64,000 bases of DNA from an uncultured Prevotellaceae bacterium (GTDB lineage Bacteria > Bacteroidota > Bacteroidia > Bacteroidales > Bacteroidaceae): NCBI GenBank assembly GCA_947168395.1, contig CAMVLT010000007.1, positions 1 through 64,000 on the forward strand, in the 5' to 3' direction. Every line of letters starts with the position of its first letter. Position 1 is the stretch's first letter. Under the pieces are notes generated by a model. The model did not search any database, was not told the origin of the DNA, and saw nothing but the letters and a program-made list of their open reading frames with translations. The position numbers and the translations under genes are program-made. Positions 2,926 through 24,682 of the stretch are shown piece by piece.

Positions 2926-5900
2926 ATGCAAAACAAAGGAATTGTAAAGTTTATTGCAGTGCTTCTGGTGCTCGTATGCTGCTTCTACCTCTCCTTCTCG
3001 TTTGTGACACGCCACTACGAAAGTAAGGCTGCCGCAATGGGTGAGAAGGCTGGACAGGAGTATCTTGACAGCATCAACAATGAGAAAGTCTACATGGGCA
3101 TTTACTCGCTGAAGCAGTGCCGTGAGATGGAAATCGGCCTGGGTCTTGACCTGAAAGGCGGTATGAACGTTATTCTTGAGGTGTCGGTGCCCGACGTTGT
3201 CGATGTGCTGGCCGACCACAAGCAGGACGCTGCCTACAAGAAGTCGATGGAGCAGGCCAAGAAGGAAGAAGAGACCAGTCAGGATGACTTTATCTCGCTC
3301 TTCATCAAGTATTGGAAACAGAACTCGAACGGTCGTCCCTTGGCCGCCATCTTCGCTACGCAGCAGATGAAGGGCAAGGTCAGCACCCAGTCTTCCGACT
3401 CTGAGGTCGAGAATGCCCTGCGTGCTGAAGTGCAGTCGGCTGTCGACAACTCGTTCAATGTGGTTCGCAACCGTATCGACAAGTTCGGCGTTGTTCAGCC
3501 CAACATTCAGAAGCTGGAGGGTCAGAGCGGCCGTATCATGGTCGAAATGCCTGGTATCAAAGAGCCCGAGCGTGTTCGTAAGCTCCTCCAGGGTAGTGCC
3601 AACCTCGAATTCTGGGAGACTTATAACTCTCAGGAGATTGTGCCCCTGCTGTCACAGCTGAACCAGAAGTACGCTGCTTTGGGTGGCGACGCTTCTGCAA
3701 GCAACGACACCATAGCTGCCGACACTGCCGCTGTTGACACCACCAAGGCCGCTACCGCCAGCGACTTGGCTACGAAACTGACCAAGAAGGCAGCCGACAC
3801 CAAGGACGAGAAAGCTATGGCTGAGGCTAAGAAGATGAACCCGCTGTTCTCGGTATTCCAGCCCGTTCAGGGTCAGGGTCTGGCCGTTGTGGGTTATGCC
3901 AATGCCCGCGATACCGCAGATGTCAACAAGGTTATTTACTCGGAGATTGCCGCACAGGTGCTGCCCGCAGAGTGTAAGCTCCGTTGGGGTGCCAAGCCCG
4001 AAGACTTCGGTGGCGAGAATACTCACGGCGACATCTTCGCCCTCTACGCCCTGAAGATTACCGAGCCTAACGGCCGCGCTCCGTTAGAGGGTGACGTCAT
4101 CACCAACTCCAAGGACGACTTCGACCAGATGGGTCACCCCTCTGTGTCGATGCAGATGAACTCTGACGGTGCCCGCCGCTGGAGCCAGATTACCAAGCAG
4201 AACATCGGTCGCGGTGTTGCCATCGTGCTCGACGACGCTGTGTATAGCGCTCCCCGTATCCTCACCCAGATTGATGGCGGTAACTCGCAGATTACCGGTA
4301 ACTTCACGATTGAGGACACCAAGGACCTTGCCAACACGCTGAACTCTGGTAAGATGCCGGCTCCCACCCGCATCGTGCAGGAAGAGGTTGTCGGTCCCTC
4401 GCTCGGTGCACAGTCTATCCAGCAGGGTATCATCTCGTTCATCGTGGCCTTCGTGCTACTGATGGTCTACATGATCATGCTGTATGGCTTCGTCCCGGGT
4501 CTGATGGCTGACTGCGCTCTGCTGTTCAACCTGTTCTTCACCTTAGGTATTCTGACCTCGTTCCAGGCGGCACTTACCATGCCGGGTATTGCCGGTATCG
4601 TGCTGACGTTAGGTACTGCCGTCGACGCCAACGTGCTTATTTATGAACGTACAAAGGAAGAGCTGCGCAAGGGTCTGAAGATGAAGGAAGCCTTGAACAA
4701 GGGTTATTCCAACGCCTTCTCTGCTATCTTCGACTCGAACGTCACTTCGTTGATTACCGGTTTCATCCTGCTGTTCTTTGGTACGGGTCCTGTCAAGGGC
4801 TTCGCTACCACCTGGATTATCGGTATCTTCTGCTCGTTCTTCACCGCCGTGTTCCTGACCCGTCTGGTCTATGAGCACATGCTGAAGAAGGACAAGTGGA
4901 CCAACCTGACCTTCGAGACCGCCTACTCGAAGAACCTCATGCAGAACACCCACATCAACTTCATGGGTGCCTACAAGAAGTCGTTCATCGTGTGGGGAGT
5001 CGCTGCCGTCATCTTCTGCATCTCGTTCGCCGTCCGCGGACTCAGCCAGAGCATCGACTTCACCGGTGGTCGTAACTACGTCGTCGTGCTCGACAAGGAG
5101 ACTCCCGTTGAGGAGGTTCGCCAGGCACTTGCCGGTGCCTTCGTCAACACCATCGGCGAGAAGGCCAACCAGGAGGCTAACACCAGCGTCATCGCACTCG
5201 GTACCGACGGCAAGACCGTACGTATCTCTACCAACTGGGACATCGAGTCGAACAATCCCGAGGTTGACGACAAGGCTGAGACCATCCTGTACAACGCCCT
5301 GAAGAAGGCCAACCTCATCAATCAGGCTGAGGTGAGCGCCTTCAAGAACCCCGACGTCCGCGAGGGTGGCTCCATCATCTCGTCGGCCAAGGTCGGTCCT
5401 TCGGTGGCTAAGGATATCACGTATGGTGCTATCATCAGCGTCATCATCGCCCTGATTGCCATCTTCATCTACATCCTCATCCGCTTCCGCAACGTAGCCT
5501 TCTCTGTTGGTTCTACCGTGGCTCTGTTCTTCGACGCACTCGTGGTCATCGGCTTCTACAGCGTACTGTGGGGCTGGGTTCCCATGTCGCTCGAAATCGA
5601 CCAGACCTTCATCGGTGCTATCCTGACGGTGATCGGTTACTCTATCAACGATAAGGTGGTGGTCTTCGACCGTGTACGTGAGAACATCCAGCTCTATGGA
5701 AAGCGCGACCGTCAGACATTGTTCAACGACTCGCTGAACCAGACCCTGGCCCGTACCATCAACACCTCTGTGACGACCTTGATTGTGCTGCTGTGTATCT
5801 TCATCCTTGGTGGTGACAGCATCCGTTCGTTCTCGTTCGCAATGATTCTCGGTGTTATCTTCGGTACGCTCAGTTCACTCTTCATTGCCGCTCCTGTAGC

Positions 5901-6036: not shown

Positions 6037-8370
6037 ATGATACTACGAGACCTGCTCCTTACCGCCGCCATTGTCATGACATCCAACATTCAGGCGCAAC
6101 AACAACAGCTGTTCGATGCAGGATGGCAATTCACCCGCAACGGAAAGACCATCAACGTCGATCTGCCCCACGACTGGGACATCTATACTGCCCCCGACCC
6201 AAAGACGGGAGCCACAGGTACTGGCGGAGGCTGGTACCCAGGCGGCAAGGGCGAGTACCGCAAGACGTTCAAGACACCAAAGGGAGAACTCACGAAACTA
6301 CACTTCGAGGGTGTCTATCAGAAAGCCGAGGTCTACGTCAACGGACAGAAGGCGGGGCAGCATGCCTACGGCTATACGCCGTTCACGGTTGACATTACAC
6401 CTTATCTATATAATAAGGGACGTGACAACGAGGTCGTTGTCAAGGTCGACAACTCCGAGCAGCCCAACTGCCGCTGGTATTCCGGCTCAGGCATCTACCG
6501 CCACGTGTGGCTTCAGACGCTGCCAGCCTTGCATATCAAAGAGAACGGCGTAATAGTCACCACGCCCAAGGTGACAGAACGGCAGGCCGTAGTGAATGTG
6601 GAAGTGACCGTTCAGAACGAAAGCAACAGCGAGCAGAAAGCAGTGGTTGCCGTTGACTATTTACAGCATAAACCTATAACGCTGAAAGCCGGCGAATGTA
6701 AAGCCGTGACATTCTCCTTTGGAATTGACAACCCGAAACTATGGTCACCCGACACCCCACACCTGTATGAAACAATTGTAGAGCTTTACTCTGACCTTGG
6801 CCCTATAATTGCTCATAACGCTGTTCACTTCGGCATCCGCTCGTTCTCGTTCGATGCCGAGAAAGGCTTCTTGCTCAACGACAAGCCGCTGCTCATCAAT
6901 GGCGCCTGCGTGCATCACGATGACGGCGTGCTGGGCGCGATGGCCTTTGACGCAGCCGAAATCCGTAAGGTAAGGCAGATGAAGGAAGCCGGTTTCAACC
7001 TCATTCGCACCTCGCACAACCCGCCGAGCCGTGCTTTCCTCGATGCCTGCGACTCGATAGGCATGCTGGTCATCGACGAGGCTTTCGACGGCTGGCGCTC
7101 GGCCAAAACACCATACGACTACTCAACACTTATCGACTCGTGCTACCGCGAGGACATCCACGCCATGGTGCTGCGCGACCGCAACCACCCCAGCGTCGTC
7201 TGCTGGAGCATCGGCAACGAGGTGATAGAGCGCAAGGACATCCGCGTCATCACCACCGCCCGACAGCTGAAAAAGGCCATACTCGAGGCCGACGACACAC
7301 GCCCCGTCACCGAGGCGCTCTGTGCCTGGGACAACGACTGGGAAATCTACGACCCGCATGCCGAGGTGCTCGACGTGGTAGGCTATAACTACATGATTCA
7401 CAAGCACGAGGGCGACCACCAGCGCGACCCCAAGCGAGTAATGTGGCAAACGGAGAGTTATCCGCGCGATGCCTTCCGCAACTGGGCGCTGGTACACGAC
7501 CATCCCTACATCGTCGGCGACATCGTGTGGACAGGTCTCGACTACCTCGGTGAGTCGGGCATTGGCCGCACCTACTATGACGGCGAACGTCCTGGCGAGC
7601 ACTACGTCAGCGGCGGACAGCCCGACTGGCACGGAGCCTACTGTGGCGACGTAGACATTACGGGATGGAGGAAACCGATAAGCCATTATAGGGAGATGCT
7701 GTGGGGACCCACCCCCGGCCCCTCCCTGTTGAGGGAGGGGAGTGTATACCTTGCCGTCCGCGAACCTAATGGCTATTTGGGGACAATACGTGAGACTGCA
7801 TGGAGCGTATGGCCTACCTGGGAGTCATGGAACTGGCCAGGCTGGGAGGGCAAGCCCATTGAGGTGGAGGTCTACACCCGTCAGCCCGAGGTGTCGCTCT
7901 ACCTGAGCGACCAGCTCATCGGCACAAAGTCGGTGAGCCGCGAGACTGAGTTCAAGGCCGTATTCTCCGTGCCTTACCAGCCGGGAACCCTCCGTGCTGA
8001 GGCGGGCGGGAAGTCTGTCACCCTCATCACCGCTACTGAGCCAGCCGCCTTGCGCCTCACCCCCGACCGCTACGTCATCACTGCCGACGGGCAGGACCTC
8101 GCGTTCATCACCGTCGAAGTGGTGGATAAAGAAGGGCGCGTCTGTCCCAATGCCGCCATCCCCTGCGAAGCCACTGTGAAAGGCCAGGGCCAACTATTGG
8201 CCTTTGCTTCAGCCGACCTCAAGGACCGCGAACCTTACACTTCGCCCAAGGTGACCACGTGGAAAGGCCGTGCCCTGCTCGTAGTGCGCAGTACAAAGAA
8301 GAAAGGAAACGTCGAGGTGAACATCAACAGCAGCCTGCCCACCTCCCGCCTCACCGTTAAAGCCAAATAA
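6037..8370 (+). CDS. glycoside hydrolase family 2 (beta-galactosidase-like), secreted
   Basis: 777 aa; PHDW, GSGIYRHVWL, RTSHNPPSRAFLDACDSIGMLVIDEAFDGW, WSIGNEV, WTGLDYLGE. Confidence 0.95.
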   Translation: MILRDLLLTAAIVMTSNIQAQQQQLFDAGWQFTRNGKTINVDLPHDWDIYTAPDPKTGATGTGGGWYPGGKGEYRKTFKTPKGELTKLHFEGVYQKAEVYVNGQKAGQHAYGYTPFTVDITPYLYNKGRDNEVVVKVDNSEQPNCRWYSGSGIYRHVWLQTLPALHIKENGVIVTTPKVTERQAVVNVEVTVQNESNSEQKAVVAVDYLQHKPITLKAGECKAVTFSFGIDNPKLWSPDTPHLYETIVELYSDLGPIIAHNAVHFGIRSFSFDAEKGFLLNDKPLLINGACVHHDDGVLGAMAFDAAEIRKVRQMKEAGFNLIRTSHNPPSRAFLDACDSIGMLVIDEAFDGWRSAKTPYDYSTLIDSCYREDIHAMVLRDRNHPSVVCWSIGNEVIERKDIRVITTARQLKKAILEADDTRPVTEALCAWDNDWEIYDPHAEVLDVVGYNYMIHKHEGDHQRDPKRVMWQTESYPRDAFRNWALVHDHPYIVGDIVWTGLDYLGESGIGRTYYDGERPGEHYVSGGQPDWHGAYCGDVDITGWRKPISHYREMLWGPTPGPSLLREGSVYLAVREPNGYLGTIRETAWSVWPTWESWNWPGWEGKPIEVEVYTRQPEVSLYLSDQLIGTKSVSRETEFKAVFSVPYQPGTLRAEAGGKSVTLITATEPAALRLTPDRYVITADGQDLAFITVEVVDKEGRVCPNAAIPCEATVKGQGQLLAFASADLKDREPYTSPKVTTWKGRALLVVRSTKKKGNVEVNINSSLPTSRLTVKAK
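7706..7750 (+). repeat. GC-rich palindromic element inside GH2 CDS (class I)
   Basis: ACCCACCCCCGGCCCCTCCCTGTTGAGGGAGGGGAGTGTATACC; encodes PTPGPSLLREGSVY. Confidence 0.75.
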
Positions 8371-8577
8371 GTCAGACTATACGAAATTCGGATTCGGCCG
8401 CGCGAACCAACCATTTTGGCCGCCCGTCCTCAAAGTTGGGGGCGGGCGCTCACCCTACCCCTCACGCCCGCTCCTCCCGTACCTTACTCCTGCTTTGCCC
8501 TATCCGTTCATCGCCGTTACCGTAAGGCGGCAACAAATTTTAAACCTTTCGTTTATCACTTTTCCGTTTTTTTTTCG

Positions 8578-8586
8578 TACCTTTGC
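8578..8586 (+). promoter_or_regulatory. -7 promoter element TACCTTTGC
   Basis: Ends 7 nt before the probable ATG at 8594. Confidence 0.6.
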
Positions 8587-8593
8587 AGTCTGT

Positions 8594-9826
8594 ATGGTAT
8601 TAAATTACATTTGGATAGCTTTTTTCGTTATTGCGTTTGTCATCGCAATTGTGAAGTTGGTGTTGTTTGGCGACTTCGACGTGTTCCCCGCCATGATGGA
8701 CAGCACGTTCTCGTCGTCGAAGACGGCATTTGAAATCTCGCTGGGCCTGACGGGCGTGCTGGCCCTCTGGCTCGGCATCATGAGGATTGGCGAACAGGGA
8801 GGTGTGGTCAATGTGCTGGCACGGGTGCTTTCACCCGTCTTTACCCGTCTGTTCCCTGAAATCCCGAAGGGCCACCCCGTAACGGGCAGTATCTTCATGA
8901 ACATTGCCGCCAACATGCTGGGCCTCGACAATGCCGCCACACCGCTCGGCCTGAAAGCTATGGAGCAGATGCAGGAGCTGAACACCAAGAAGGACACGGC
9001 CTCGAACTCGATGATTATGTTCCTCGTGCTGAATACCAGCGGCCTGACGCTCATTCCCATCAGCATCCTGGTGTACCGTGCCCAAATGGGAGCTGCCCAG
9101 CCCACCGACGTGTTTATTCCCATCCTGCTGGCTACCTTCTTCTCGACGTTGGCCGGCATCATCGTCACCTCGCTCTACCAGCGCATCAACCTGCTCAACC
9201 GCACCATCCTGCTCACGGTGGGCGGAGCGTGTGCCGTCATTGCCGCCGTCATCTGGGGTTTCTCGCAATTGGACAGCGAGATGATGAACAAGGTGAGCAC
9301 CACCGTCGCCAACATCCTGCTGATGACCATCATCATCGGGTTCATCCTGGCTGGCGTACGCAAGAAGGTCAACGTCTACGACGCCTTCATCGAGGGAGCG
9401 AAGGACGGTTTTACGACGGCTGTGCGCATCATTCCCTATTTGGTGGCTATCCTGGTGGGCATCGGCGTGTTCCGTGCCTCGGGAGCTATGGACATGCTGA
9501 TTGACGGCATCAAGTGGGGCATCGAGGCAACAGGCATGAACAGCGACTTCGTGGGTGCCCTGCCTACGGCTCTGATGAAGCCCCTTTCGGGCAGCGGTGC
9601 ACGTGGCATGATGGTCGATGCCATGACCACCTTCGGTGCCGACTCGTTCGTGGGTCGTCTGTCGTGCGTCTTCCAGGGAAGTACCGACACCACCTTTTAT
9701 ATATTAGCCGTCTACTTCGGCTCCGTCGGCATCCGCTATACTCGCCACGCCGTGGCCTGCGGCTTGCTCGCCGACCTGGCAGGCATTGTTTCGGCCATAG
9801 CCATCTGCTACATGTTCTTTGGGTAA
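8594..9826 (+). CDS. SpmA-SpmB-like fused nucleoside-recognition (Gate) domain membrane protein
   Basis: Two Gate-like halves (NIAANMLGLDNAATPLGLKAM; LSGSGARGMMVDA, CVFQGSTDTTFYILAVYFG); start chosen at MVLNYIWIAFF after the promoter. Confidence 0.88.
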   Translation: MVLNYIWIAFFVIAFVIAIVKLVLFGDFDVFPAMMDSTFSSSKTAFEISLGLTGVLALWLGIMRIGEQGGVVNVLARVLSPVFTRLFPEIPKGHPVTGSIFMNIAANMLGLDNAATPLGLKAMEQMQELNTKKDTASNSMIMFLVLNTSGLTLIPISILVYRAQMGAAQPTDVFIPILLATFFSTLAGIIVTSLYQRINLLNRTILLTVGGACAVIAAVIWGFSQLDSEMMNKVSTTVANILLMTIIIGFILAGVRKKVNVYDAFIEGAKDGFTTAVRIIPYLVAILVGIGVFRASGAMDMLIDGIKWGIEATGMNSDFVGALPTALMKPLSGSGARGMMVDAMTTFGADSFVGRLSCVFQGSTDTTFYILAVYFGSVGIRYTRHAVACGLLADLAGIVSAIAICYMFFG

Positions 9827-19308: not shown

Positions 19309-19322
19309 GGCAAGCGCAAAAT

Positions 19323-19405
19323 AACCTCACAACCTCATATAATCGTTCGAAATGCCTTTGTATAAAGGCGTTTCAGAGCATGAGGTATATTTGAGATACC
19401 TCATG
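19323..19405. repeat. left copy of ~83-bp direct repeat bounding the cohesin/dockerin island
   Basis: 83-bp match to 24391..24473 with about 7 differences by eye; contains GCCTTTGTATAAAGGCGTTTC and ATGAGGT/ACCTCAT heptamers. Confidence 0.9.
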
Positions 19406-19445
19406 GAAACCTCATAGGAACCTCATCTATAGGTGTGGGTATTTA

Positions 19446-20033
19446 TTACTTCACCATCTTCTTACCACCAACAATGTAAATGCCTTTCGTTGGATTAGTG
19501 ACACGGCGACCGCTCATGTCATAAACGGTCTTTTTATCAGTCTGAGTGGTATTAACATTAACGATGGACGTTGCATCTTCCTTCACCTTCACCGTAAATG
19601 CTGCATCATTGCACTTATGACTTACCAAATCGGTCGAAGCTGTGCGAATGGTGTAGAGACTGCCGCTGAAGCTGCCGGTCTGCTGACCCACGGTGATGGG
19701 CAGGCGCAGCAGCGTGCCGTTGGATACCGATTCCAAGTCCGTATGGTAGAGCACGACGAGGCGGTCGCCGCTGTCCATCGTCTGTACACTCAGCGTATGG
19801 CTGCTGACGGCTTCGCCCGTCGTGATGGCACTCTCGTTGAGCGTTATGCCCTGTGGCAGCGCGAGGTTGAACTGCAGGGCAGTCACGCCAGTCATGCCGC
19901 TCGCTCTCACCACCAACTCAGCCTGTCCGCCCTTCGTCGCCTCAACGGAAGCCACGCTAAGTGTCTGTGCCGTTGCACCGCCGGCTATCGCCAGCAGCGC
20001 AACTATGGTTTGTAGTATTCTTCGTTTCATCAT
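19446..20033 (-). CDS. secreted cohesin-like domain protein with T9SS-type C-terminal tail
   Basis: signal peptide; SVEATKGGQAELVVRASGMTGVTALQFNLALPQGI...GTLLRLPITV resembles cohesin; tail VYDMSGRRVTNPTKGIYIVGGKKMVK. Confidence 0.75.
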   Translation of the reverse strand: MMKRRILQTIVALLAIAGGATAQTLSVASVEATKGGQAELVVRASGMTGVTALQFNLALPQGITLNESAITTGEAVSSHTLSVQTMDSGDRLVVLYHTDLESVSNGTLLRLPITVGQQTGSFSGSLYTIRTASTDLVSHKCNDAAFTVKVKEDATSIVNVNTTQTDKKTVYDMSGRRVTNPTKGIYIVGGKKMVK

Positions 20034-20034
20034 A

Positions 20035-20790
20035 TTATAATATCTTAATTAAAATATCTCCGCCTTTAGCAATACGTCCTCCAATAGAAGTTATTTTATA
20101 TCCATTAATTGTTGATGTATCTTCTGTTTTAACTGTTGGCGTATTAGGATCAGATGGATCATAGAAATTAACTGTCTTATCTAAAGTAGTTAATACATAA
20201 ACATAATTCTTTTCAGTTGTACTTGGATTTGTAAATGTTTGTTCAGCAGGATAAGATTCAACGACACTTGCTTGTGACAATGATGTTGGCTTTGTTGTTC
20301 CTACATAGAAATAATTAGCCGTTGGCGCCACATCTGTAATTCTTATTTTTATTGAACCTGTATTTGCTGTTCCAACAGCTGTCTCAAAAATCTTATATCC
20401 TGGTATTGTTGTAATATCTACTTCATTTTGATCAACAGGATTTCCAGTTGCTATATTAATAAATGTTACATTCTTATCACTATTTGTCAATACAAATATA
20501 TGAGATTTAGCTCCTGAATTATTTGTATAAGTTTGCTCAGCCGGATAAGATTCAACGACACTTGCTTGTGACAATGATGTTGGCTTTGTCGTTCCTACAT
20601 AGAAATAGTATTTGCTATCTCCTGCCGTACCGCCAGCTTCCTTCATAATGTTGAGGATAGCTACGATGTCGGCAATATCCACTTTGCCATCTTCATTCAC
20701 ATCACCCACCAGCGGAGTGTTGTTGTCCTGTGCAAACGAGCACACACTCATCAGCAGCATGGCTGCCATCAGTAATATTCTTTTTGTTTT
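20035..20790 (-). CDS. secreted dockerin-like (EF-hand) protein with two ~98-aa tandem C-terminal modules
   Basis: MKTKRILLMAAMLLMSVCSFAQ signal; GDVNEDGKVDIADIVAILNIM dockerin-type loop; YFYVGTTKPTSLSQASVVESYPAEQT occurs twice. ORF-track start at 20823; the MKTKRI start is preferred. Confidence 0.75.
   Translation of the reverse strand, partial: KTKRILLMAAMLLMSVCSFAQDNNTPLVGDVNEDGKVDIADIVAILNIMKEAGGTAGDSKYYFYVGTTKPTSLSQASVVESYPAEQTYTNNSGAKSHIFVLTNSDKNVTFINIATGNPVDQNEVDITTIPGYKIFETAVGTANTGSIKIRITDVAPTANYFYVGTTKPTSLSQASVVESYPAEQTFTNPSTTEKNYVYVLTTLDKTVNFYDPSDPNTPTVKTEDTSTINGYKITSIGGRIAKGGDILIKIL
20245..20610 (-). repeat. tandem module repeat, ~70 bp near-identical core with 294-bp period
   Basis: ATAAGATTCAACGACACTTGCTTGTGACAATGATGTTGGCTTTG at 20251 and again at 20545. 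Confidence 0.85.
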
Positions 20791-20835
20791 CATAATCGTT
20801 TGAAATTGTTGGTTATTTATCATTTTGTTCTGAAA

Positions 20836-20979
20836 TTATTGCGGATCTAATCCTTCTTCCGTATTGTCCACACCGCCATAGCCAATGCCAAAGTCGCTGC
20901 TGACGGGGCTGGCAGCTATCATGTCCTCGACGGTCAACTCTATGATTTCCGTTTCAGGTGCTCTGTAAATCTTCTTCAT
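20836..20979 (-). CDS. unlisted small protein (47 aa)
   Basis: MKKIYRAPETEIIELTVEDMIAASPVSSDFGIGYGGVDNTEEGLDPQ*; AAGGAGG Shine-Dalgarno-like sequence overlaps the stop of the upstream gene; in-frame ATG also at 20985. Confidence 0.65.
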   Translation of the reverse strand: MKKIYRAPETEIIELTVEDMIAASPVSSDFGIGYGGVDNTEEGLDPQ

Positions 20980-20993
20980 TGTCATTGCCCTCC

Positions 20994-22148
20994 TTATTTA
21001 ATGATTACTTTATTGCCGTTCTTCACATAGATGCCCTTGGCAGGACGCTCCACTCGCTGGCCCTTCAGGTTGTAATACGTTGAACGCTGCACACCAACTG
21101 TTGAACGTTGTGCGTCGCTGATGCTGGTCGTTTCGTCGAACGAAAGAACGACACGTGAATCGTAATGGACGCCAGCGGCGGCAAGGTCGAAGTAGGCACG
21201 GTAGGCCTTCATCTTCGTCTTGCCCGTAGAGAAATAGAACTTTCCCTCGTTCAGGAACAGCCATCCGTCAGTCAGCGTCAGTCCGTTCTCGTAGTTGCCA
21301 ACGAACGAATTGTACTTCCCGTCCTTTCCGTCTTTCTTCACACTGGCCTCCCCAGCGGCTATGTCAACTCCATCCACCGCGAAGCTCTCGACGCCGGCCG
21401 TCACCTTAATAATATAAGGATGGTTGGCCTCGATGGCGTCGGCCTCCGTGAAGTTTACCTTCACCGTCTCTCCGTCAACGGTACATCCCGTGAAGTCGCC
21501 CAACTGCACATCATCGCCGAAAGCCGCTTTCACCTGGGCCTCAGTCATGGCAAAGGGCAGGCAGATGGTGCTCCAGGTGTCGGCAGGAATAGTGCGTTTC
21601 ACCGTCGCCTTCACACCTTCCACGCTCTTCGGAGCCTCCGTGGCGTTCTCGTCGAGCACGACGTCTGACTTCACCGTCAGGGCAAACGCGGCATCGGCGC
21701 ACTTCTGGCTCACGGACTCCGTGGTTGCCGTACGAATGGTATAGAGGCTGCCGTTGAAGCTTCCAGCCTGCTCTCCTACGACGATGGGCAGTCGCAGCAG
21801 CGTGCCGTTACTGACCATTCCTAAATCCGTATGATAGAGGGCGACAAGGCGGTCGCCATTATCCAACGTCTGAACTGACAGCGTGTGACCGCTTGCGGCC
21901 TCGCCCTTCGTGATGGCACTCTCGTTGAGCGTCACTCCCTGTGGCAGCGCGATGTTGAACTGCAGGGCAGTCACGCCAGTCATACCGCTGCCGCTGACCA
22001 CCAGCTCAGCTTGCTCACCTGCTTTCGCCTCAACACTTGCTATGCTGAGCGTCTGTGCCGTTGCACTACTAACTATCGCCAGCAGCGCAACTATGGTTTG
22101 TAGTATTCTTTGTTTCATCATATCACTTTTCTTTTTCTGCTTCGCCAA
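20994..22148 (-). CDS. secreted cohesin-like domain protein with extra beta domain and T9SS-type tail
   Basis: Paralogous to 19446..20033 over the N-terminal ~150 aa; tail YYNLKGQRVERPAKGIYVKNGNKVIIK; ORF-track start MAKQKKKSDMMKQRIL, likely real start at MMKQ or MKQ. Confidence 0.75.
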   Translation of the reverse strand: MAKQKKKSDMMKQRILQTIVALLAIVSSATAQTLSIASVEAKAGEQAELVVSGSGMTGVTALQFNIALPQGVTLNESAITKGEAASGHTLSVQTLDNGDRLVALYHTDLGMVSNGTLLRLPIVVGEQAGSFNGSLYTIRTATTESVSQKCADAAFALTVKSDVVLDENATEAPKSVEGVKATVKRTIPADTWSTICLPFAMTEAQVKAAFGDDVQLGDFTGCTVDGETVKVNFTEADAIEANHPYIIKVTAGVESFAVDGVDIAAGEASVKKDGKDGKYNSFVGNYENGLTLTDGWLFLNEGKFYFSTGKTKMKAYRAYFDLAAAGVHYDSRVVLSFDETTSISDAQRSTVGVQRSTYYNLKGQRVERPAKGIYVKNGNKVIIK

Positions 22149-22197
22149 CCTTTGTGAATTAAGTTTCCCGATTCACAAATCTCGGCGAATCACATTG

Positions 22198-22464
22198 TTA
22201 ATTACCTTTTAATGTCCCTCTAATGATTTCACCAGTTGTATTGATTGTAATACTTGTTCCAAATGTTGTATTTGAATTAGGTAAAACTGCTCCATTCCAA
22301 TCAATTAATACTGATTGAAGATTTCTATATTCTTCACCTTCATTTATATAATCTTGTAAATCAGATTCAGATGTAATATCTGGATTTCTTACATTTCCAA
22401 TTGCAGTTCCTTTACCAATTCTACTTAAATTTGTAAAATTTATTCCATTTATTGTTTTTGCCAT
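22198..22464 (-). CDS. hypothetical protein, AT-rich (88 aa)
   Basis: ORF MAKTINGINFTNLSRIGKGTAIG... in a strongly AT-rich stretch. Confidence 0.5.
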   Translation of the reverse strand: MAKTINGINFTNLSRIGKGTAIGNVRNPDITSESDLQDYINEGEEYRNLQSVLIDWNGAVLPNSNTTFGTSITINTTGEIIRGTLKGN

Positions 22465-22487
22465 ATATTATAATATAATCTATATTT

Positions 22488-23027
22488 TTAATAAATATCA
22501 ATTGCTAATTTTCTAGATTTACCAACTGTTTCATAAACTTTATATGTTACTCCAGAAATAGTCACATTAGAAAGTTTAGTATACATATCTACTGTAGAAG
22601 CATCATTACCTGCGCCATCTCTTGGACATGCAGAACTATTAGCAGGAATTGCAATATATTGTTTAGCAAGTGAAGTGCCGGTAACAATTTCTCCACCTTC
22701 AACATATTCAAATAATTTGTTTGAAGAACTATACGTTGGTAAAGTTGTTCCAATTAATCTCCATCCCGGTGAACTTGTATCAGTAACAATTGGCGAAATA
22801 CTCGTCATTGTTGAAGGATCTGTCTGTCCTACATACCAATAAAATGTTGTTGCCTCCTTAGTCCCTCCAGCTTCTTTCATGATTTTGAGCACGGCCAACA
22901 CGTCATTGTAATCCACCTTGCCGTCCCCATTCACATCACCCTTCAGCGGGGTGTTGTTGTTCTGTGCAAACGAGCACACACTCATCAGCAGCATGGCTGC
23001 CATCAGTAATAGTTTCTTTGTTTTCAT
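22488..23027 (-). CDS. secreted dockerin-like (EF-hand) protein with a divergent AT-rich C-terminal module
   Basis: MKTKKLLLMAAMLLMSVCSFAQNNNTPLKGDVNGDGKVDYNDVLAVLKIMKEAGGT near-identical to 20035..20790 N-terminus; then YWYVGQTDPSTMTSISPIVTD. Confidence 0.72.
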   Translation of the reverse strand: MKTKKLLLMAAMLLMSVCSFAQNNNTPLKGDVNGDGKVDYNDVLAVLKIMKEAGGTKEATTFYWYVGQTDPSTMTSISPIVTDTSSPGWRLIGTTLPTYSSSNKLFEYVEGGEIVTGTSLAKQYIAIPANSSACPRDGAGNDASTVDMYTKLSNVTISGVTYKVYETVGKSRKLAIDIY

Positions 23028-23053: not shown

Positions 23054-23686
23054 TTATTTCATTTGTATATATGTCAATGTTTTATCTCTATCAGAAATCA
23101 AGCCTCTTGGACCAGAATCGAGATAGTCTTTCATAACACAGAAGAAATCTTCAATCAGATTATTAGGCAAAGCCCGAAGGCTAGTAATACCCGCGACCGC
23201 CAAAGCTTCTGGATACGAGAAGAATGTAGATAGGACTTCTTTAGAACTTAGTTTCCTTCCTCCTAACAATTTCCTTGCGCCTTCCATTGCTCCATTATTG
23301 AGATATAGTATTTTCCGAGGATATATAGGTTTATCAAACAAATGGCCGATTCGTAAAGACGTATCATAAACTGTTAATGGACCAATATTGTTAAGGTTTC
23401 CAATAAGGTTATTTACCGTATTGAACAAATCTTCAAAGTCCTTAAATGGAGTTGAAAGGATAGACAAAATATGTACTTCAATTATACTAATAGCGGGATT
23501 CTTGTATTTGAAAGGAATTCGACGCTGATGTCCTCCAACAACACAAACTTCCGCCAATTTATGTAATGCTGCTTTAGAACGCGTTGCTGCATAACAAATA
23601 TAAGCTTTCTTGACGTCATCCAATTCTTCAAGATGTCTTTTGCACAGAAGGCAACGATAACATTTTACTGCTTCTTTAAAATTCAT
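23054..23686 (-). CDS. hypothetical protein, AT-rich
   Basis: 210-aa ORF MNFKEAVKCYRCLLCKRHLEEL...VYDTSLRIGHLF..PIYPRKILYLNNGAMEGARKLLG; family not assigned. Confidence 0.6.
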   Translation of the reverse strand: MNFKEAVKCYRCLLCKRHLEELDDVKKAYICYAATRSKAALHKLAEVCVVGGHQRRIPFKYKNPAISIIEVHILSILSTPFKDFEDLFNTVNNLIGNLNNIGPLTVYDTSLRIGHLFDKPIYPRKILYLNNGAMEGARKLLGGRKLSSKEVLSTFFSYPEALAVAGITSLRALPNNLIEDFFCVMKDYLDSGPRGLISDRDKTLTYIQMK

Positions 23687-23997: not shown

Positions 23998-24300
23998 CTA
24001 CGCGGCTCTCTCATATATTAGAATTCCATCGCGATTTACACTTTCACGGGCAAAGGATGCCAGTGTTCGGTCTACTACTAAGTCTACGTTTCGACCTAGT
24101 ATCTCCTTCAGGTCTTCATACATACCAAAAAACCTTAGGCCAACAGGCTGTGAGTGATCAAGCACAACAAGTATGTCAACATCGCTGTCCTCCCGTTGCT
24201 CGCCGCGGGCAAAGGAGCCAAAGAGCCAAGCCTTCACAACGGGTTGCGTCTTGAAGTACTCGGCTATCTGCCTGCTGATGATTGTTGTTTCCGTACTCAT
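23998..24300 (-). CDS. nucleotidyltransferase domain protein (MNT/MntA-like)
   Basis: VVKAWLFGSFARGEQREDSDVDILVVLD motif; start chosen at MSTETTIISRQ. Confidence 0.85.
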   Translation of the reverse strand: MSTETTIISRQIAEYFKTQPVVKAWLFGSFARGEQREDSDVDILVVLDHSQPVGLRFFGMYEDLKEILGRNVDLVVDRTLASFARESVNRDGILIYERAA

Positions 24301-24390
24301 AAGGTATATTAGACGTGGCAAAGATAAGAAGAAAAAACGAAAGTTCCAAGAAAAACGAACAAAAAATGCTTTCAAGCGAAAATCAAAAAG

Positions 24391-24473
24391 AACCTCATAA
24401 CCTCATATAATCGCTCGAAACGCCTTTGTATAAAGGGGTTTCAGAGCATGAGGTATGTTCAAGATACCTCATG
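24391..24473. repeat. right copy of ~83-bp direct repeat bounding the cohesin/dockerin island
   Basis: Matches 19323..19405. Confidence 0.9.
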
Positions 24474-24550
24474 AATACCTCATGTTGACCTCATCAGCTG
24501 CATCTGTGGAGTGAGGTGTTTATGAGGTCTGTATGAGGTATCTCAGAAAC

Positions 24551-24614
24551 ACCTCATGTACCGAAATGCCTTTGTACAAAGGGGTTTCAGAGGATTATAT
24601 GAGGTTATGAGGTG
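24551..24614. repeat. inverted third copy of the CCTTTGTA(T/C)AAAGG / ATGAGGT repeat
   Basis: ACCTCATG..CCGAAATGCCTTTGTACAAAGGGGTTTCAGAGGATTATATGAGGTTATGAGGT resembles the reverse complement of 24391..24455. Confidence 0.75.
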
Positions 24615-24682
24615 TTTTTGCAAAAATGCTCTCCGCAGGAGCATTTGTTCCTATGGATGAACTGTCACTGAGGGGATGCTGG

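Follow-up and report, generated by a model that had tools for sequence, protein, structure and literature searches.

The window, a 64,000-nt stretch from an uncultured Prevotellaceae bacterium (positions 1 to 64,000 of contig CAMVLT010000007.1, assembly GCA_947168395.1; a 4.07-Mb draft genome of 117 contigs), contains on its minus strand a cassette of cohesin-fold genes paired with dockerin-like genes (19446-23027). The dockerin-like proteins have one EF-hand, here called a half-dockerin, and most of each protein is a sequence related to phage tail fibres (the Y-domain), a part that the initial annotation of this DNA overlooked. Half-dockerin and cohesin-fold genes are linked in an operon, base composition breaks between the half-dockerin and Y, and the Y-domains are shuffled among related loci. 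The half-dockerin gene would thus be a mosaic, with a host 5' part (Sec signal and one EF-hand) joined to one or more phage-related Y-domains. We put at about even the chances that the cohesin and half-dockerin of each pair bind each other and so present fibre domains captured from phages on the cell surface.

The six open reading frames (ORFs) of the initial annotation are all found on the minus strand, and all genes from 24300 to 19446 have the same direction. Two details change: an ATG at 22121 is a more plausible start for the 20994 gene than 22148, and the ORF between the two pairs, given as 47 amino acids, is one of 49 amino acids at 20836-20985. The cassette is composed as follows (GC3, GC content at third codon positions; T9SS, type IX secretion system; pLDDT, predicted local distance difference test):

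22854-23027, minus strand: half-dockerin gene 1, 5' part; signal peptide and one EF-hand (GDVNGDGKVDYNDVLAVL); Dockerin_1 23.0 bits, GC3 66%.
22491-22853, minus strand: half-dockerin gene 1, 3' part; phage-related Y-domain; GC3 11%; clusters with the Y-domains of loci L118, L122, L124 and L132; phage fibre relatives of the Y family.
22198-22464, minus strand: 88-amino-acid ORF, phage tail-fibre N-terminal domain ('DWNG') lacking a signal peptide; phage similarity; GC 27%; follows the Y gene in bacteria and phages.
20994-22121, minus strand: cohesin-fold gene 1; additional C-terminal domain; T9SS-like tail; 75% identity to the modelled 19446 cohesin; cohesin part GC 57%.
20836-20985, minus strand: 49-amino-acid ORF (MKKIYRAPE..., of the MKKIYxxPE type) between the two pairs; similar ORFs in L129 and L099.
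20614-20790, minus strand: half-dockerin gene 2, 5' part; signal peptide and one EF-hand (GDVNEDGKVDIADIVAIL); Dockerin_1 21 bits; GC 47%.
20326-20613, minus strand: gene 2, Y-domain 1; pLDDT about 95; phage structural matches; 35% identity to a phage protein (E 6e-10).
20038-20313, minus strand: gene 2, Y-domain 2; 41% identity to a phage fibre-like protein (E 8e-12).
19446-20033, minus strand: cohesin-fold gene 2, short form, with a T9SS-like tail; AlphaFold model, first 36 PDB matches cohesins.

The AlphaFold model of half-dockerin and Y has a pLDDT of about 95 over the Y-domain. No PDB entry provides a solved fold for Y (best E 0.056). Searched against a viral structure library, Y matches phage proteins at probability 1.00 (best E 1.8e-4), crAss-like phage proteins among them, tail fibres included; because the template modelling (TM) scores are modest (about 0.4-0.47 by query length), these matches alone are a lead only. 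At the level of sequence, of 57 bacterial Y-domains, 25 match fibre-like genes on contigs of large phages (best 57% identity, E 2e-26), and in the tree of one Y subfamily the phage sequence L213 lies inside a bacterial group with support 96/94. The scan of viral contigs located a Y-domain at the end of a 679-amino-acid gene in a 142-kb phage contig, directly followed by a relative of the small window ORF 22198-22464. This ORF has 43% identity over 82 amino acids to a 103-amino-acid gene of a large phage (E 3e-10) and is the domain that forms the N-terminus of the following fibre gene in phages (fibre-N). When viral contigs were scanned for fibre-N, with the phage gene following Y and the bacterial ORFs as seeds, more copies were found on the 142-kb contig and on five other contigs of 26-410 kb. 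Here the domain opens fibre-like proteins of up to 1542 amino acids, several of which adjoin baseplate-type genes. Y and fibre-N are homologous to fibre-like genes in a phage tail/baseplate neighbourhood. In phages, Y closes one gene and fibre-N opens the next, after a gap of 16-42 nt, at five places. The small bacterial fibre-N ORF follows a half-dockerin-Y gene in all eight cases, at a gap of 12-28 nt in seven of them, and both order and spacing match between phages and bacteria.

Prevotella Lak megaphages and Tenacibaculum PTm phages have genes related to the baseplate-type neighbour on one of the phage contigs, which points to Bacteroidota viruses. The whole records of Lak-B1, Lak-C1 and PTm5 gave no Y or fibre-N match, and the LR756500 record gave one weak fibre-N match. 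The Y-domains have weak, scattered matches in PHROGs, and a tblastn search of named phages with the Y and fibre-N proteins returned none.

The composition of the half-dockerin genes changes abruptly. In the 22488 gene, GC3 is 66% up to codon 58 and 11% beyond it, the step lying between KEAGGTKE and ATTFYWYVG (difference in log-likelihood, delta lnL, 27), and in the 20035 gene it falls from 51% to 11% near the same half-dockerin/Y boundary (delta lnL 20). Over 44 genes, the signal/half-dockerin part has a mean GC of 46% (GC3 49%) and the rest 34% (GC3 19%), the rest being lower in 42 of the 44 (p 1e-12). GC3 drops from 5' to 3' in 40 of 41 genes with a supported split, most splits lying 7-43 codons past the EF-hand loop. 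The phage loci have a GC of 25-30%, the small ORF 22198-22464 one of 27% and the Y parts of gene 2 one of 32%, against 54% for the window. Read directly, AT-rich phage fibre sequence has been joined repeatedly to a stable host leader; composition and fibre-gene context together suggest that transfer ran from phage to host. As the dockerin-like proteins are mostly related to phage fibres and have phage-like composition, their cargo probably consists of captured phage attachment domains, not of generic surface proteins.

The Y-domains move independently of the cohesins. L098 and L112 share 86% identity in Y and 51% in their cohesins (L098/L101, 85% and 44%), whereas L099 and L100 share 59% in Y and 93% in their cohesins (L099/L103, 63% and 95%); Y identity is 81-86% where the cohesins are at 44-51%, and 59-64% where they are at 90-95%. 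Within gene 2 of the window, the first 87 nt of Y-domains 1 and 2 are 94% identical, an internal duplication. A diversity-generating retroelement was set aside by eye only, with no dedicated test, as the variation looks like whole-domain exchange.

The cohesin fold that had been suggested for the partner proteins is borne out by structure prediction. The AlphaFold model of the 195-amino-acid 19446 product, built on 45 relatives, has a pLDDT of 95-98 in most domain blocks, and its first 36 structural matches in the PDB are all cohesins. The top match is 2xdh (E 9.5e-9), a non-cellulosomal cohesin from Archaeoglobus fulgidus; 2vo8 from C. perfringens is also matched (TM 0.81 normalised by target). 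Pfam has no hit for the window cohesin proteins, nor did the cohesin profile retrieve any cohesin from the sequences in the PDB. Four near-identical clostridial cohesins were too narrow a set for hhalign to be informative, and a broader set was used instead, 12 Bacteroidaceae domains picked by the Pfam cohesin model (11 of 12 above cut-off), which the cohesin profile matches at 98.5% (E 3.4e-15, 125 columns). Each window protein has one cohesin domain. In the window's own genome, large proteins at L093 (G000:C61), L094 (G000:C55) and L095 (G000:C9) combine cohesin-like domains, dockerins and T9SS-like tails and are possible alternative partners.

The single EF-hand noted for each dockerin-like protein is confirmed. 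Pfam Dockerin_1 covers about positions 1-28 of 57, with the 22488 product above and the 20035 product below the cut-off of 22.9 bits. The type I calcium-loop pattern D-x-N-x-D-G-x-V-D-x-x-D is present, as seen in the Pfam match and the alignment columns, and its calcium-loop residues are invariant in 15 of 15 aligned proteins. Type I dockerins have two tandem hands; both window proteins have one. The counterpart in L129 has two hands, and half and full dockerins swap between positions in relatives. In related Bacteroidaceae genomes (L189-L204; G115, G129, G110, G078), many secreted proteins have a full two-hand dockerin at the very C-terminus, where it seems to replace a T9SS-like tail, and a protein at L206 (G078:C4) has an N-terminal half-dockerin and a Y-like C-terminus.

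The two pairs in the window arose by tandem duplication, as had been proposed. The similarity on which that proposal was based is real, but 'near-identical' overstates it: the two cohesin genes share 78% DNA identity over 300 nt and the two half-dockerin genes 78% over 199 nt, with the cohesin proteins 75% identical over 167 amino acids. When named genomes were scanned once with the cohesin alignment, 42 loci came up. Their titles are of Bacteroidales or Prevotella metagenome genomes, and every title that names an animal sample gives a ruminant gut compartment. Of the 42 testable cohesin genes, 39 are preceded on their own strand by a half-dockerin gene, which in 34 of the 39 is within about 400 nt. 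Of the three unpaired genes, those of L113 and L137 are near a contig end; at L127, a fragment of a half-dockerin is found some 2.9 kb upstream of the gene. The pairing (39/42) therefore makes a cohesin/dockerin pair outside the classical clostridial cellulosomes, as the initial annotation had it, the likeliest reading. Genome G021 has the cassette at four places. A protein has one to three Y-domains, and as many as five half-dockerin genes occur in one operon. Upstream of a half-dockerin gene, 0.3-1.8 kb away on the same strand, 13 loci (that of the window among them) have an MNT, HEPN or RelE gene. A virus-borne cassette was considered and rejected: the half-dockerin and cohesin alignments have no relatives in IMG/VR, and the genes flanking the cassette in the window look chromosomal.

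T9SS tails had been assigned to the window cohesin proteins. Their C-termini are similar to the ends of numerous further proteins in this family of genomes, but they match no curated tail model, and we regard the assignment as weak. The translocon gene sprA/sov is present in the window's own genome (PF14349, E 1e-214), and SprA/Sov was found in six of six carrier genomes searched. On the half-dockerin proteins there is a Sec-type signal but no T9SS-like tail.

In the arrangement that we propose, the cohesin protein would bind the half-dockerin proteins. It may take up two of them together, a single hand being half of the normal module, and two half-dockerins may have to pair. The T9SS-like tail of the cohesin protein, if functional, would carry the complex to the outer surface, where the cohesin protein would hold the half-dockerin proteins and present the captured phage fibre domains. 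That the two genes stay together would be explained, because the tail-less half-dockerin proteins would ride on their partner. The displayed domains might occupy the receptors of the parent phages; such receptor masking is tentatively our first choice of purpose, with adhesion nearly as likely and some other use also conceivable. Taken further, rumen Bacteroidales might repeatedly capture the attachment domains of the phages that prey on them, splice these onto the half-dockerin leader and display them via cohesin, thereby occupying their own receptors, a phage memory at the level of protein that we consider conceivable, with more to doubt in it than to favour it. If true, this would make the operon an anti-phage system of a new kind, one that keeps exchangeable captured domains as a library. 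The case for an anti-phage role is circumstantial and consists of the phage-related cargo and the MNT, HEPN or RelE neighbours.

Several points weigh against surface display of phage attachment domains. We know of no demonstration that a single EF-hand binds a cohesin alone, nor of any phage with these exact domains that infects a carrier. The role of Y as the receptor-binding tip is suggested by its C-terminal place in fibre-like genes. Neither Pfam nor NCBIfam gives a T9SS tail match in the window proteins. A few cargo domains (L125, L130, L131) have host-like GC. In 11 loci, the cohesin protein has its own dockerin hand or module, a terminal half-dockerin in L116, L121, L123, L125, L128, L133, L134 and L135 and a full dockerin in L112, L130 and L137, and 10 of these 11 proteins lack a T9SS-like tail. 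Anchoring would differ in these loci, because their cohesin proteins carry their own dockerin, mostly with no such tail. The idea that a tail-less cohesin is always trailed by a second, tailed one was rejected, as it holds only in L112 and L137.

The same cassette could serve as a modular adhesin, with Y a glycan- or protein-binding domain common to phages and bacteria and a changeable set of such domains sticking to plant fibre, mucus or neighbouring cells; phages would supply the parts and not be the target. Cohesin/dockerin display is an established means of presenting modules, and the variable number of Y-domains and half-dockerin genes, as well as the overwhelmingly ruminant-gut Bacteroidales sources, agree with such a use. 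On the other hand, Y belongs to no Pfam binding family and has no solved fold, and the unameliorated phage-like DNA and the position behind MNT, HEPN or RelE genes fit a conflict with phages somewhat better. We regard the adhesin as possible, though short of probable. It is unlikely, in our view, that cohesin and half-dockerin do not bind at all, with the EF-hand only stabilising the N-terminus and the cohesin-fold protein an ordinary secreted beta-sandwich, co-expressed for some other reason. One hand where two are usual, and cohesin-like domains in many unrelated large proteins of these genomes, speak for such a reading; the near-universal operon pairing and the exchange of half and full dockerins between positions in the same proteins argue for binding.

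The fibre-N ORF (22198-22464) might have an activity of its own, free fibre N-terminal domains in the cytosol competing for the baseplate and spoiling the assembly of the infecting phage. Intact short ORFs of this kind, with no signal peptide, recur in the window, L098, L112, L119, L123 and L132. Most loci lack the ORF, however, and stand-alone fibre-N is also an ordinary phage gene (L216, 103 amino acids; L213, 135 amino acids), so that the ORF may be a passenger of domain capture; we consider its activity improbable. In several genes of the L112 array (4178-5302, 6537-7136, 7941-8990), the signal peptide is preceded in frame by what is left of the phage fibre N-terminal leader (MAIYQENNIQFTNV...), which looks like a recombination scar. 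A cellulosome-like enzyme complex outside Clostridia would account for a cohesin fold and a dockerin hand in rumen bacteria. Y has no catalytic or carbohydrate-binding module (CBM) family in Pfam, however, and each window protein has a single cohesin domain, which makes such a complex the least credible of these explanations, and very remote. Enzyme cargo was rejected on the same ground for the half-dockerin proteins as a whole.

Cohesin/dockerin modules that are not cellulosomal are known from archaea and from other bacteria (PMC9012536), and the archaeal pairs, from Archaeoglobus fulgidus and anaerobic methanotrophic (ANME) archaea, are reported to bind (Peer et al. 2009, as cited in PMC9012536). 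The window cassette shares with these modules the cohesin fold (2xdh being the best structural match), the dockerin loop and the absence of cellulase cargo; it differs in its single EF-hand, where they have two, its conserved operon of two genes, its T9SS-like tails, its Bacteroidota host and its phage-related cargo. Clostridial and ruminococcal cellulosomes have the cohesin and type I dockerin families in common with it, whereas the window locus has no multi-cohesin scaffoldin, no enzyme or CBM cargo, and half instead of full dockerins. Bacteroidetes genomes have been said to lack cohesins and dockerins (PMC5831590). Dockerins of rumen Bacteroidetes are described on glycoside hydrolase (GH), domain of unknown function (DUF) and CBM proteins, their role being called undefined (PMC7480376). 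Phylum, habitat and dockerin-type sequences are the same as in the cassette, which in addition encodes a cohesin-fold partner next door. With the operon a linked partner is at hand, and the question of what dockerins do in rumen Bacteroidetes becomes directly testable with two small soluble proteins.

The fibre-like genes of large Bacteroidota phages (IMG/VR; neighbours Lak/PTm-related) share with the cassette the C-terminal Y, the fibre-N domain that opens the next gene, and the order and spacing of the two. In bacteria, by contrast, a Sec signal and half-dockerin precede Y in one fused protein, and fibre-N is a short stand-alone chromosomal ORF. Llp of phage T5, a lipoprotein that binds the FhuA receptor from the periplasm and inactivates it (PMC9586334), is an analogy and not a relative: this superinfection exclusion resembles the proposal only in the effect, a phage receptor made unavailable, and the blockers proposed here are fibre domains displayed by the host. 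A limited search of the open-access literature found no description of half-dockerins fused to phage domains. We place the cassette among the non-cellulosomal cohesin/dockerin systems, as a variant of them. To present cargo that is phage-related, AT-rich and exchangeable would put cohesin/dockerin display to a new use and, if adsorption were blocked, would amount to a defence that stores captured phage attachment domains.

Two accessory genes lie upstream of the cassette in the same direction:

23054-23686, minus strand: AT-rich gene; GC 36%; weak relative ahead of the L121 cassette; sub-threshold ADDT similarity.
23998-24300, minus strand: MNT-type nucleotidyltransferase gene; PADLOC PDC-S09, E 2.9e-21.

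The MNT gene is the only match of PADLOC among the window proteins tested. The similarity of the 23054-23686 product is to Pfam ADDT (amino acid:DNA transferase), and no relatives of the gene were found in viral or phage collections. Several loci (L112:5327-5956, L119:5114-5728, L106, L113, L116, L132, L133) have, among the half-dockerin and cohesin genes, a conserved protein of about 205 amino acids with a helix-turn-helix (HTH)-like stretch (KNDFEVWIF...SVELRIPExKVKRLRYE), which has no family match and no relative in viral collections. The small ORFs of L129 and L099 that resemble the 49-amino-acid ORF sit 3' of a cohesin gene. A repeat of about 110 nt (19318-19427, 24386-24495 and 24512-24619) stands on either side of the cassette, one copy on the right being inverted. 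Another 20 or so copies are scattered in the genome, often as inverted pairs, and the repeat could be a REP/MITE-like element (repetitive extragenic palindrome or miniature inverted-repeat transposable element) or a recombination site.

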